The position numbers were made by a program, and so were the translations under genes. From Synechococcus sp. CCY 0621 (GTDB lineage Bacteria; Cyanobacteriota; Cyanobacteriia; PCC-6307; Cyanobiaceae), in assembly GCF_019038465.1 (NCBI RefSeq), contig NZ_JAFKRH010000031.1, forward strand, positions 62,001-126,000: a stretch of 64,000 nucleotides of DNA, written 5' to 3'. The notes under the pieces are model-generated. The model searched no databases. It had not been told where the DNA came from and saw only the letters and a program-made list of their open reading frames with translations. Position 1 is the stretch's first letter. Every line of letters begins with the position of its first letter. Below, one piece after another: positions 14,814 through 18,665 of the stretch.

Positions 14814-15560
14814 ATGCTTTCCGGTCCTCCGGTTTCCAGCACCGTTGATGCCGATCAGCTGCTGGAGCGTTTCCTGGCAGGCTCCGCGCGTCAGCGCCGC
14901 AGCCTGCTGGGCCCGCTCGAGCAGGCCGGCTCCGACCTGCTCGAGCGGATCCCGGACCGGCTCGACCGGCTCGATGCCACCGGTGATGACTGGGCAGCGG
15001 GCCATCTGATCCAGCTGCTGCTGGCCCGCGGGGACACAGGCCGGCAGGAGGCCTGGCGGGCCCGACACCCCGAGGGCTGGCTCGCCGTCGCCAGCGCCGC
15101 CGGCCTTGACTACACGCCGCTGCAGCAGCGCCTGATGCGGCAGGACTTCGAAGCGGCCGATCGCCTCACCAGCGAGCACCTGCGCCAGCTGGCCGGAGAG
15201 GCAGCCGTGCGGCGCGGCTATGTCTATTACAGCGAGGTTGCGGTGATGCCAGCCACCGACCTCACCAGCCTCGACCGTCTCTGGTGCTGCTACTCCCAGG
15301 GGCGTTTCGGCTTCTCGGTCCAGGCCCGCCTGCTGCAGGTGTGTCAGGGACAGTGGGATCGGCTCTGGCCCCGGCTCGGCTGGAAGAGCAACGGCACCTG
15401 GACCCGCTACCCGGGCTCCTTCCAGTGGTCGCTGGAGGCCCCGGAGGGCCACATGCCCCTGATCAACCAGCTGCGGGGCGTGCGGTTGATGGACGCGGTT
15501 CTGCAACATCCCGCCATACGGGCCCGCCTGGGGGAGGCGCCGGCCGGGGGTGCGCGTTAG
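14814..15560 (+). CDS. gun4: GUN4 domain protein
   Basis: The protein has 248 residues. An N-terminal helical bundle (about 10-90) precedes the GUN4 core (about 95-235). The core is recognisable from [20 protein letters not shown], then [22 protein letters not shown] and the [33 protein letters not shown] region (quoted in pieces). GUN4 binds protoporphyrin and Mg-protoporphyrin and stimulates magnesium chelatase at the entry to chlorophyll synthesis. It may be cotranscribed with the ATPase gene 32 bases downstream. Confidence 0.92.
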
Positions 15561-16384: not shown

Positions 16385-16654
16385 ATGAGCCGCCTCCAGC
16401 GCCCCCGCCGCTCACCACCACCCGGACTCCTGCACCATCTGGCCGCGGTGCTGAGCATCGCCGGCCGCCCGGGGGCCGTTGCCCCCACTGGCGTGACGCT
16501 GCGGCGGCGGCGGCAGAAGCTGGAGCTGGCCCAGAGGCTGCTGGATCCCCTCCCCGACGGCCTGCTGCCGAGCAGCCGTCATGGCGAACGTTTCTGGTCG
16601 GCCCTGCGCTGGGGGGGGCTTGGGCTGCTGCTGGCCTGGCTGCTGCGTCCCTGA
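16385..16654 (+). CDS. Small hypothetical protein with C-terminal membrane helix
   Basis: The protein has 89 residues. It has a basic, proline-rich N-terminus (MSRLQRPRRSPPPG), a charged helix with TLRRRRQKLELAQRLL, and a final hydrophobic helix LGLLLAWLLRP. No family is recognised. It lies alone between the divergent DUF6439 gene and the converging glutamine synthetase-like gene, with one base between their stops. Composition matches the neighbours. Confidence 0.45.
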   Translation: MSRLQRPRRSPPPGLLHHLAAVLSIAGRPGAVAPTGVTLRRRRQKLELAQRLLDPLPDGLLPSSRHGERFWSALRWGGLGLLLAWLLRP

Positions 16655-16655
16655 G

Positions 16656-17984
16656 TCAGCCGATGGGGTCACTGGCGAACTCAAGGGGATGGGGCCGGCG
16701 CTCCAGTTCCTCCAGCTCCAGGCGTTTGAGGGCGATCCAGTCCTCGATCAGCTCCTGGCTGAAGACACCACCGGCCAGCAGGTAGTCATGGTCGCCGGCG
16801 AGGGCCGCCAGGGATCCGCCCAGGTCGGTGGGCAGGCTGGCGCCAGCTGGCGGGACAGAACCGGCGGCGGGCTCCAGATCGCTGGGGGATCCGGGATCGC
16901 TCTGGCGGCGCACGCCATCGAGCCCTGCCATCAGCATCGCCGCCAGGGCCAGATAGGGATTGGCCAGCCCATCCGCCTGGCGCAGCACCAGCCGCCGCTT
17001 GTCGGGGTCGCTGCCGCTGTCGGCAACCGCGACCACCGTCGAGGGGTCGTTCCTGGCGTAGGTCAGGCGGGTCGGGGCCGCGGGGCCGCTCCGCAGCCGC
17101 CGGTAGCTGTTGGTACCTGGATTGGTGAAGGCGGCCAGGGAGGGGCCATGGTGCAGCAGCCCCCCCAGGTACCAACGGGCGGTCTGGGACAGGTCGCCAT
17201 AGGTGCCTGCACCGCAGAACAGGGGCTGGCCGGCCCTCCAGAGGCTCTGGTGCACCGCCAGGCCGGCGCTGATCGGATCCAGCGTGGGCTTCGGCAGCAT
17301 GGTGGCGCTCCAGCCGTGGCGCCGGGCCACGTGGCGCAGCACATAGCGGCTGACCATCAGGGCATCGGCGGCCCGCAGCAGGTCGTCGCTCCCCAGGCTC
17401 AGCCCAAGCAGGGGGGCCGGCGGAGACGGCTGACGCAGGCGGGCCGGCAGGCCCAGGGCCGTCAGGGTAAGCACCAGTTCGTTGCCAAGCGCCTCCGGTG
17501 GCTCAGTGCCGTTGGCGATCTGGTAGCCACAACCCTGGTCACTGCAGTGCCAGATCAGCTGGTTGAACAGGAAAAAGTCCTGCGTCACTCCGAAGCGGGC
17601 TGCATCGGCCAGGCCGCTGCCGGCCAGCAGGGCCAGGGCGCGGCCGGCCAGGGAGCGGGGGCAGTGGCGGACGTTCGGCCCGGACCCCGCCGGTGCCTCG
17701 ACCGTGGCGATCAGGCTGAGGCTTCGGGGGGAGAGAAAGGGGTCGATCCAGGCGGTGGCGGGGTCCGGATGCAGGACCAGACCGCTGGCACGGCTGTCGA
17801 AGGAATCGCTGTCGAAGGAAAACTTGTCGAGGCAAAGGCCCCGCTGAAAGGCCCCCTCGCCGAGCTGGTCGGCCTCCAGCCCGAACGAATGCCAGCGGCC
17901 CTGCAGGTCACTCACCTTGAGGTCGATGCGCTCGATGCCGTCCTCCCCGAGGCGGCGCAGGACGTCCTGGGCGGAGGTGGCCAT
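16656..17984 (-). CDS. Glutamine synthetase homologue lacking catalytic residues (pseudoenzyme)
   Basis: The protein has 442 residues and aligns end to end with type I glutamine synthetase. Landmarks are DVLRRLGEDGIERIDLKVSD, PDPATAWIDPF, VHQSLW, AFTNPGTNSYRRL, ANPYLALAAMLMAGLDG and the C-terminal RPHPLEF. The metal and substrate ligands are altered. The usual E-x-E before FFLF is T-Q-D, the HHEVA and GQxEL glutamates are gone, GMHCH is GLAVH, the flap YEAP is PAAP, RSASIRIP is absent, and EFR is VLR. It is therefore unlikely to make glutamine. It is divergent from apcF; a regulatory or structural role is possible but unproven. Confidence 0.85.
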   Translation of the reverse strand: MATSAQDVLRRLGEDGIERIDLKVSDLQGRWHSFGLEADQLGEGAFQRGLCLDKFSFDSDSFDSRASGLVLHPDPATAWIDPFLSPRSLSLIATVEAPAGSGPNVRHCPRSLAGRALALLAGSGLADAARFGVTQDFFLFNQLIWHCSDQGCGYQIANGTEPPEALGNELVLTLTALGLPARLRQPSPPAPLLGLSLGSDDLLRAADALMVSRYVLRHVARRHGWSATMLPKPTLDPISAGLAVHQSLWRAGQPLFCGAGTYGDLSQTARWYLGGLLHHGPSLAAFTNPGTNSYRRLRSGPAAPTRLTYARNDPSTVVAVADSGSDPDKRRLVLRQADGLANPYLALAAMLMAGLDGVRRQSDPGSPSDLEPAAGSVPPAGASLPTDLGGSLAALAGDHDYLLAGGVFSQELIEDWIALKRLELEELERRPHPLEFASDPIG

Positions 17985-18146
17985 GGTGGAGGTGGATGGG
18001 AAGGCTGCCGCCACGATGGTGCCCCCCCGGCTGGCCGGTGGCCGCGTAACCGTTTCTGTCAGATTCCCCAGAACCAGCCGCAGCACAGGAATCTGGCGGA
18101 TTGCGAGTGCTACCTTCCGCTGCAGGTGCGTCGATCCGTTTCGTCC

Positions 18147-18665
18147 ATGCGAGATGCCATCACCGGTCTGATTGGTCGTTACGACCAGCTGGGCCGCTAC
18201 TTCGATCGTTCCGCGATCGATCGGATCGATGCCTACTACGGCCAGGCCGAGTTGCGACTCGCCGCCGTCGAACTGATCAACCGGGAAGCGGCCGTCATCG
18301 TGCGCGAGGCAGCCCAGCGCCTCTGGCTTGAGGACCCCGAGCTGCTCCTCCCCGGTGGCAACGCCTACACCACCAGGCGCCTGTCGGCCTGCCTGCGCGA
18401 CATGGATTACTTCCTGCGCTACGCCAGCTATGCCCTGGTGGCGGACGATTTCACCATCCTCGACGAGCGCGTTCTCAACGGCCTCGATGACACCTACAAG
18501 AGCCTGGGTGTTCCCACCGGTCCCACCGTCCGCAGCATCGCCCTGCTCGGTGAGGTGATCGCCGAGATGCTGGCCGATGCCGGCCTGGTGGACACCGGAC
18601 TGGTTCGGGCCCCCTTCGAGCATCTCTGCCGCGGCCTTTCCTCCAGCAACGTCCGCGCCCGCTGA
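18147..18665 (+). CDS. apcF: Allophycocyanin beta-18 subunit ApcF
   Basis: The protein has 172 residues and is a phycobilisome core subunit of the globin-like phycobiliprotein family. The phycocyanobilin-binding cysteine is Cys82 in SACLRDMDYFLRYASYAL. The preceding GGNAYTTRR keeps the asparagine (Asn72) that is methylated in beta-type subunits. The N-terminus MRDAITGLIGRYDQLGRYFD and VLNGLDDTYKSLGVPTGPT fit ApcF better than ApcB or ApcD. ApcF sits in the core cylinder with ApcE and helps pass energy to photosystem II. It is monocistronic in appearance and divergent from the glutamine synthetase-like gene across 162 bases. Confidence 0.88.
   Translation: MRDAITGLIGRYDQLGRYFDRSAIDRIDAYYGQAELRLAAVELINREAAVIVREAAQRLWLEDPELLLPGGNAYTTRRLSACLRDMDYFLRYASYALVADDFTILDERVLNGLDDTYKSLGVPTGPTVRSIALLGEVIAEMLADAGLVDTGLVRAPFEHLCRGLSSSNVRAR

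Follow-up and report, generated by a model that had tools for sequence, protein, structure and literature searches.

Organization of the glnA Locus

The window, which is the whole stretch of DNA that was analysed (64,000 nucleotides of Synechococcus sp. CCY 0621), contains a homologue of type I glutamine synthetase (GSI, GlnA) that is divergent from a phycobilisome core gene. The features of this locus are listed below.

16656 to 17984, minus strand: glnA-locus pseudoenzyme, a GSI homologue whose catalytic residues are lost (442 amino acids)
17985 to 18146, no strand: 162-bp region between the divergent starts, in which exact NtcA-type boxes are missing
18046 to 18060, no strand: intergenic block, GACAGAAACGGTTAC in the glnA direction, unchanged in 39 of 40 apcF-glnA regions
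18147 to 18665, plus strand: apcF-like phycobilisome core gene of the allophycocyanin-beta family, the ancestral neighbour of glnA

The frame of the pseudoenzyme opens with ATG at 17984, closes with TGA at 16658-16656 and comprises 442 codons without N. The product of 18147-18665 belongs to the allophycocyanin-beta family of phycobilisome proteins and scores below the apcB cut-off; it is named ApcF by resemblance. A GUN4-like gene is also present near the locus (14814-15557, plus strand, Pfam E 2e-55); GUN4 is a regulator of the tetrapyrrole pathway.

The apcF gene lies divergently upstream of glnA in all 18 aligned loci with a true glnA, and it does likewise for the dead form, that is, the pseudoenzyme of the window and its orthologues (at L186 the contig ends too early for the neighbourhood to be judged). 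Because the divergent apcF is common to true and dead glnA, the pseudoenzyme gene is glnA at its ancestral place. Given this ancestral synteny, the fact that it faces apcF has no special meaning. The earlier note had seen in this position a hint of a link between nitrogen status and antenna content. Such a link to the phycobilisome was rejected, since the arrangement is identical for true glnA and since the dead form is without the NtcA-type boxes of its genus.

The region between the two starts differs between the two kinds of locus. The 17 dead-form loci have 161-163 bp there, and 11 loci of the genus with a true glnA have 245-453 bp. Exact NtcA-type boxes (GTAN8TAC) are found in 8 of these 11 true-glnA regions and in 0 of the 17 dead-form regions, the chance of an exact box per region being about 4% and about 1%, respectively, by mononucleotide shuffling. 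Tolerating one mismatch raises these figures to 11 of 11 and 1 of 17. The argument from box loss is valid within the genus only, because true glnA of other genera also lacks exact boxes (0 of 7 GlnA loci). The GACAGAAACGGTTAC block is shared by several genera and precedes true and dead glnA alike, with L184 as the exception; from this conservation it is probably a regulatory site for apcF or for both genes.

Homology and Predicted Fold of the Pseudoenzyme

Homology to GSI spans both the beta-Grasp and the catalytic domains of the window protein (Pfam PF03951 Gln-synt_N, E 7.8e-9, 35.5 bits, cut-off 33.4; PF00120 Gln-synt_C, E 2.4e-67, 227.9 bits, cut-off 24). The protein matches the NCBIfam GlnA family TIGR00653 with 276.9 bits, which is below the equivalog cut-off of 429.15; for comparison, the GlnA at L106 scores 633.7 bits. 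It is a genuine GS homologue and chance is excluded, because both Pfam domains and the GlnA family match. The GSIII_N domain of Pfam has no match in it up to E 10.

An AlphaFold2 monomer model based on a 59-row alignment has a mean pLDDT of 83.8 and a pTM of 0.89. It resembles the GSI structure 7w85 with Z 52.8 (3.2 A over 423 residues) and the Synechocystis GlnA structure 3ng0 with Z 47.1; Foldseek was also run. A GS-like model is to be expected because the underlying alignment is mostly GlnA. The overall fold, as predicted, is that of GS, and it carries no information on activity.

Loss of the Catalytic Residues

Residues were compared in an alignment of 40 GS proteins of the family. These are 17 dead-form proteins (that of the window included), 18 GlnA, two proteins of g23 and three of g37, the last two being related GlnA-derived forms from two other genera of the family. 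Alignment A1 took in 58 of the 80 loci. Besides the 18 aligned GlnA rows, 23 more loci, some from the same genomes, were read by motif alone, and all 23 show all motifs in one frame. The catalytic set consists of 11 positions (E129, E131, E212, E220, N264, G265, H269, E327, R339, R344, and E357), in the numbering of Salmonella GS. All 18 GlnA references retain the full set. The window protein is changed at 11 of 11: E129 is T, E131 is D (a conservative change), E212 is S, E220 is G, N264 is I, G265 is S, H269 is A, the flap residue E327 is A, R339 is P, R344 of IRIP is A, and E357 is V. The register at E212 and E220 is less certain because this stretch adjoins a deletion. Counterparts of R321, H271, S273, R355, and R359 are retained. 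The central loop is partly deleted and the C-terminal tail is altered in comparison with the columns of GlnA. The earlier note had described a GS pseudoenzyme in which the metal glutamates, the histidine, the flap glutamate, and the IRIP arginine were replaced, and the residue mapping agrees with it. Judged from the alignment, the glnA-locus protein is confirmed as a GSI homologue stripped of its catalytic positions. A protein that is still an active GS by means of substitute residues would fit the predicted fold, but the alignment used for the model makes that fold likely in any case and it is no sign of activity, and with every catalytic site changed we regard continued activity as scarcely credible.

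The stretches that bear on the pocket and on its surroundings are the following; the coordinates of the first two come from residue numbers.

17400 to 17432, minus strand: QPSPPAPLLGL, residues 185-195, the degraded E212/E220 metal-ligand stretch, with neither ligand in any of 17 orthologues
17256 to 17258, minus strand: codon of residue 243 (Ala), the counterpart of metal ligand H269 (GMHVH changed to GLAVH)
17094 to 17255, minus strand: block strongly conserved in the dead clade, residues 244-297, VHQSLW..PLF.G.GTY.DLSQTARWYLGGLL.HG.SLAAFTNPG.NSYRRL
16914 to 16994, minus strand: second conserved block, residues 331-357, RLVLRQADGLANPYLALAAMLMAGLDG, with R355 and R359 counterparts present and E357 absent

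Seven of the 11 catalytic sites (E212, E220, N264, H269, R339, R344, and E357) are retained in none of the 17 orthologues. The other four are retained in part, E129 in nine, the flap residue E327 in seven, E131 in two, and G265 in one. R321, H271, and R359 are retained in all 17, and S273 and R355 in 16. Among 300 columns that are invariant in the 18 GlnA, 111 stay invariant with the same residue in the 17 dead forms, and 17 are deleted across all of them. Entropy is 0.83 to 2.44 in ten catalytic columns and averages 0.48 over 258 other columns that are invariant in GlnA (Mann-Whitney p 3e-6). By these column statistics the pocket of the dead clade drifts while much of the core stays conserved.

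The same columns bear on the idea that the GS fold was recruited as a new enzyme, either another ATP-dependent ligase or some other chemistry. The H271, S273, R355, and R359 counterparts are retained, and other GSI paralogues, Streptomyces GlnA3 and GlnA4, reportedly use amines as substrates. However, the E212, E220, H269, and E357 counterparts are gone from all 17, and their columns are variable and hold no conserved replacement set. A new enzymatic activity is therefore improbable in our estimate.

Distribution of the Dead Form and of GlnN

Each of the 42 genomes of the genus has exactly one GlnA-like place at E 1e-60 or better. In 17 genomes, that of the window included, it is the dead form (58-100% identity); one of these orthologues, L001, belongs to Cyanobium sp. 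Cruz-8D1. In the remaining 25 it is of GlnA type (46-49%), and the catalytic residues or motifs are intact in all 16 of those that were checked. One GlnA-type locus of the genus, L185 in G310, has an apparent frame shift around residue 66 with its motifs otherwise intact, which is either an assembly error or a first break. An insertion in the GlnA of G059 proved to be only an assembly gap. When 300 genomes of the family were searched with a true GlnA, 15 dead-form genomes returned the dead form only (E 1.3e-78 to 1.8e-87), and 10 other genomes of the genus gave matches at E below 1e-267. A true glnA overlooked in a draft assembly was considered and set aside, as it is absent from all 15 sampled dead-form genomes, including G090, which is a single contig.

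The window's own genome has no further close GSI, its other matches being at E 3.1e-27, 1.2e-24, and 4.2e-4. The suggestion that the pseudoenzyme binds GlnA is ruled out here, since the search of this genome found no canonical GlnA. Binding of a GlnA inhibitor, which had been suggested as well, is unlikely for IF7: the IF7A family (IF7 only, not IF17) has no match in the 42 genomes of the genus. In the same search for a sink of IF7, the control, Synechococcus elongatus, gave a signal only under the cut-off, and distant homologues could thus have escaped it. The absence of IF7 does not distinguish the dead form, because GlnA-type genomes lack it too.

Type III glutamine synthetase, GlnN (PF12437), is present in all 17 dead-form genomes and in 22 of the 25 GlnA-type genomes of the genus. 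The three genomes without it (G175, G243, and G314) are all of GlnA type. The association between the dead form and GlnN is not significant (one-sided Fisher p 0.20), yet no dead-form genome is without GlnN. The GlnN of the window's genome is a separate gene from the pseudoenzyme. Its open frame is 733 codons long, counted from a start that is not fixed. The product aligns to the GSIII structure 3o6x (E 2.4e-189), has the GSIII_N domain, and shows the catalytic motifs EQEYFL, RHNEVAPGQFE, NGSGKHVNWS, and NRTSPFAFTGNRFEFR. No exact NtcA-type box was found upstream of glnN in seven regions. In this genome (L195, contig C5, about 26-43 kb), as at L083, two further GS-like genes sit no more than about 16 kb from GlnN, forming a small GS-family gene cluster. 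The two GS-like genes on the contig of the window's own GlnN pass the TIGR03105 cut-off with 548 and 566 bits, and they could also yield glutamine or other gamma-glutamyl products. GlnN probably makes the glutamine in dead-form genomes; that it is the sole source is something we infer, because these two genes could contribute.

Selection on the Open Frame

The dead form is under purifying selection, and this selection is weaker than that on the core gene apcF. In a pairwise codon model, run with our own script, 12 dead-form pairs, which share branches and hence are not independent, gave dN/dS values of 0.13-0.24 with likelihood-ratio statistics of 32-134 against a value of 1. In the same pairs dN/dS of apcF is 0-0.07, and the dead form exceeds apcF at least about 1.9-fold in every pair. 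Eight GlnA pairs, one of them with saturated dS, have dN/dS of at most 0.14, and just one (0.14) falls within the dead-form range. The constraint is weaker than that of a core gene because dN/dS is higher than in apcF and in seven of the eight GlnA pairs. The g23 pair has dN/dS 0.24 and three g37 pairs have 0.20-0.25. Frame-disrupting mutations in close relatives had been named beforehand as what would refute a selected role, and none is present in the 17 dead-form orthologues, over pairwise dS values of up to 1.1. In a simulation of point mutations along one lineage, the probability that no stop arises is 0.41, 0.21, 0.03, and 0.03 at 0.06, 0.12, 0.3, and 0.5 neutral substitutions per site. 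Selection for a non-catalytic role, as proposed in the earlier note, is supported by both the dN/dS values and the unbroken frames.

An open frame in GC-rich DNA could also be a by-product of constraint on the DNA itself, for example on an antisense frame or on the promoter of apcF. A long antisense frame does run on the opposite strand (16581-18665), and the intergenic block is strongly conserved. That block falls outside the gene, however, and both L097 and L099, the latter a g23 form, have breaks in the codon-aligned antisense frame within the gene. In the GS frame synonymous sites change several times faster than nonsynonymous sites, and the conservation of amino acids tracks the GS fold. 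We judge an origin of the open frame in DNA-level constraint to be very improbable.

Degraded GlnA in Other Lineages

Two proteins of g23 (L099 of G023 and L101 of G069) are changed at 5 of the 11 sites (E129, E212, E220, H269, and E327) and keep R339, R344, and E357; their changes fall preferentially on catalytic positions (Fisher p 0.008). L099 passes the GlnA equivalog cut-off with 506.7 bits despite its lost ligands, so automatic annotation would name it an active enzyme. The three g37 proteins (L156, L157, and L158, from three genomes) have open frames at the apcF locus, are degraded still further, and are changed at all 11 sites when gaps are counted as changes. At L160 of G051, a GlnN-bearing genome, a remnant of glnA with shifted frames and stops lies beside apcF, and the genus-mate G084 has a canonical GlnA. 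Several GlnN-bearing genomes of the family, for example G032, G048, G143, and G205, have no match at the level of GlnA. As read from these genes, the family has a graded series of intact, partly dead, fully dead, frame-broken, and absent glnA.

An apcF tree with midpoint root gathers the genus's dead clade into a single group (98/97) amid GlnA-bearing relatives and joins g37 to the GlnA-bearing g35 (100/98). Since this tree places both the dead clade and g37 among GlnA-bearing relatives, it suggests no fewer than two, and probably three, independent conversions in the family. The protein tree separates the dead clade from all 18 GlnA (99/98) and does not nest it in the GlnA of its genus. Long branches may explain this placement; alternatively, the dead clade may descend from an older paralogue.

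The class was also sampled beyond the family, in 276 genomes (at least 90% complete, with at most four candidates scored in each). About 45 have no canonical GlnA, and none has a best score between 1e-42 and 1e-150, as read by eye. Strongly degraded forms thus look restricted to this family within the class sample. Partly dead forms are invisible by score alone, because g23 scores like a true GlnA (E 6.7e-230), and this applies to the class sample and to genomes of the family without a residue reading.

The main rival explanation is one of slow decay, in which the protein has been functionless since GlnN made it redundant and the residual constraint reflects selection against misfolding and the short time since the loss. 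The drift of the catalytic pocket without a fresh consensus agrees with it. So do the dN/dS values above those of seven of the eight true GlnA pairs, and the stages seen in the family, where g23 is partly and g1 and g37 are strongly degraded, G051 is frame-broken, and others have no glnA. Against it stand the unbroken frames of all 17 orthologues over such divergence and the simulated odds of escaping a stop. Moreover, dN/dS is far under 1 in every pair, and either the dead or the GlnA-type form is present in each of the genus's 42 genomes. Slow decay is unlikely on balance.

A Probable Non-Catalytic Role for a GlnA-Derived Protein

In our assessment the pseudoenzyme is probably a non-catalytic, GlnA-derived scaffold or regulatory protein, with GlnN doing the chemistry. 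The genus's own glnA would have been converted in place. The cell has a second complete GS, GlnN, and the resulting redundancy may have let GlnA shed the sites for metal, glutamate, and ammonium together with a portion of the central loop, all of which are lost. The nitrogen-regulated part of the promoter would then have vanished, leaving the shorter upstream region without boxes that is seen today. The folded protein would still be made, and the selection seen on its frame would serve a catalysis-free role. This role is most likely binding, by a scaffold or regulatory subunit that preserves an older second job of GlnA. The nucleotide-side residues that remain in the dead form (the H271, S273, R355, and R359 counterparts) could give a nucleotide-responsive scaffold. 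The old dodecamer may not form, because the C-terminal tail and the loops that form the ring interface in GS are altered. A counterpoint to the binding model is that other GlnN-bearing lineages lost or broke glnA and left no dead form. A broader proposal is that the second, non-catalytic job of picocyanobacterial GlnA outlives its activity, and that lineages in at least two, probably three, genera of the family independently shed catalysis in place while keeping the protein; we put it forward tentatively, as possible though doubtful. Of the earlier interpretation, a pseudoenzyme selected for a function other than catalysis has stood, and binding of GlnA, binding of IF7, and the antenna link have not. 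The context goes beyond it, in that the gene is glnA itself, altered in place, in genomes that bear GlnN.

The pseudoenzyme is like GlnA (Synechocystis 3ng0, TIGR00653) in its homology over both domains, its start motif, its apcF-adjacent locus, and its conserved core blocks. It is unlike GlnA in that it has no metal, glutamate, or ammonium residues, a partly deleted central loop, an altered C-terminal tail, no NtcA-type boxes of the kind found in its genus, and a score below the family cut-off. The GSI fold is used without GS activity in lengsin (LGSN), a GSI-derived lens protein of vertebrates. Lengsin is eukaryotic; in the present case the housekeeping GSI of a bacterium was itself altered where its gene stands.

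Glutamine synthetase stands at a central point of nitrogen entry. No description of a dead cyanobacterial GlnA was found among the matches listed, which cover titles and the starts of abstracts, with most subscription journals and preprints outside the coverage. According to one survey, glnA occurs in every picocyanobacterium except freshwater SC5.3 strains (PMC9361551). A study of Synechococcus WH7803 states that the analysed picocyanobacteria harbour glnA with the exception of RS9917 (PMC4923085). Some of the GlnA counted in surveys may be the dead form, and if so, the wrong enzyme would be named in models of nitrogen assimilation. With the graded series, the non-catalytic function of GlnA becomes a testable question.

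According to the WH7803 study, glnA is under NtcA control and glnN seemingly is not, RS9917 has two GSIII and zero GSI, and Pseudanabaena PCC 6903 has GSIII only (Crespo 1998, as cited in PMC4923085). Like these two GlnN-only strains, the dead-form genomes have type III GlnN without a functional GSI. Unlike them, reported there as free of GSI (PMC4923085), the dead-form genomes have kept a degraded GSI protein that is under constraint.
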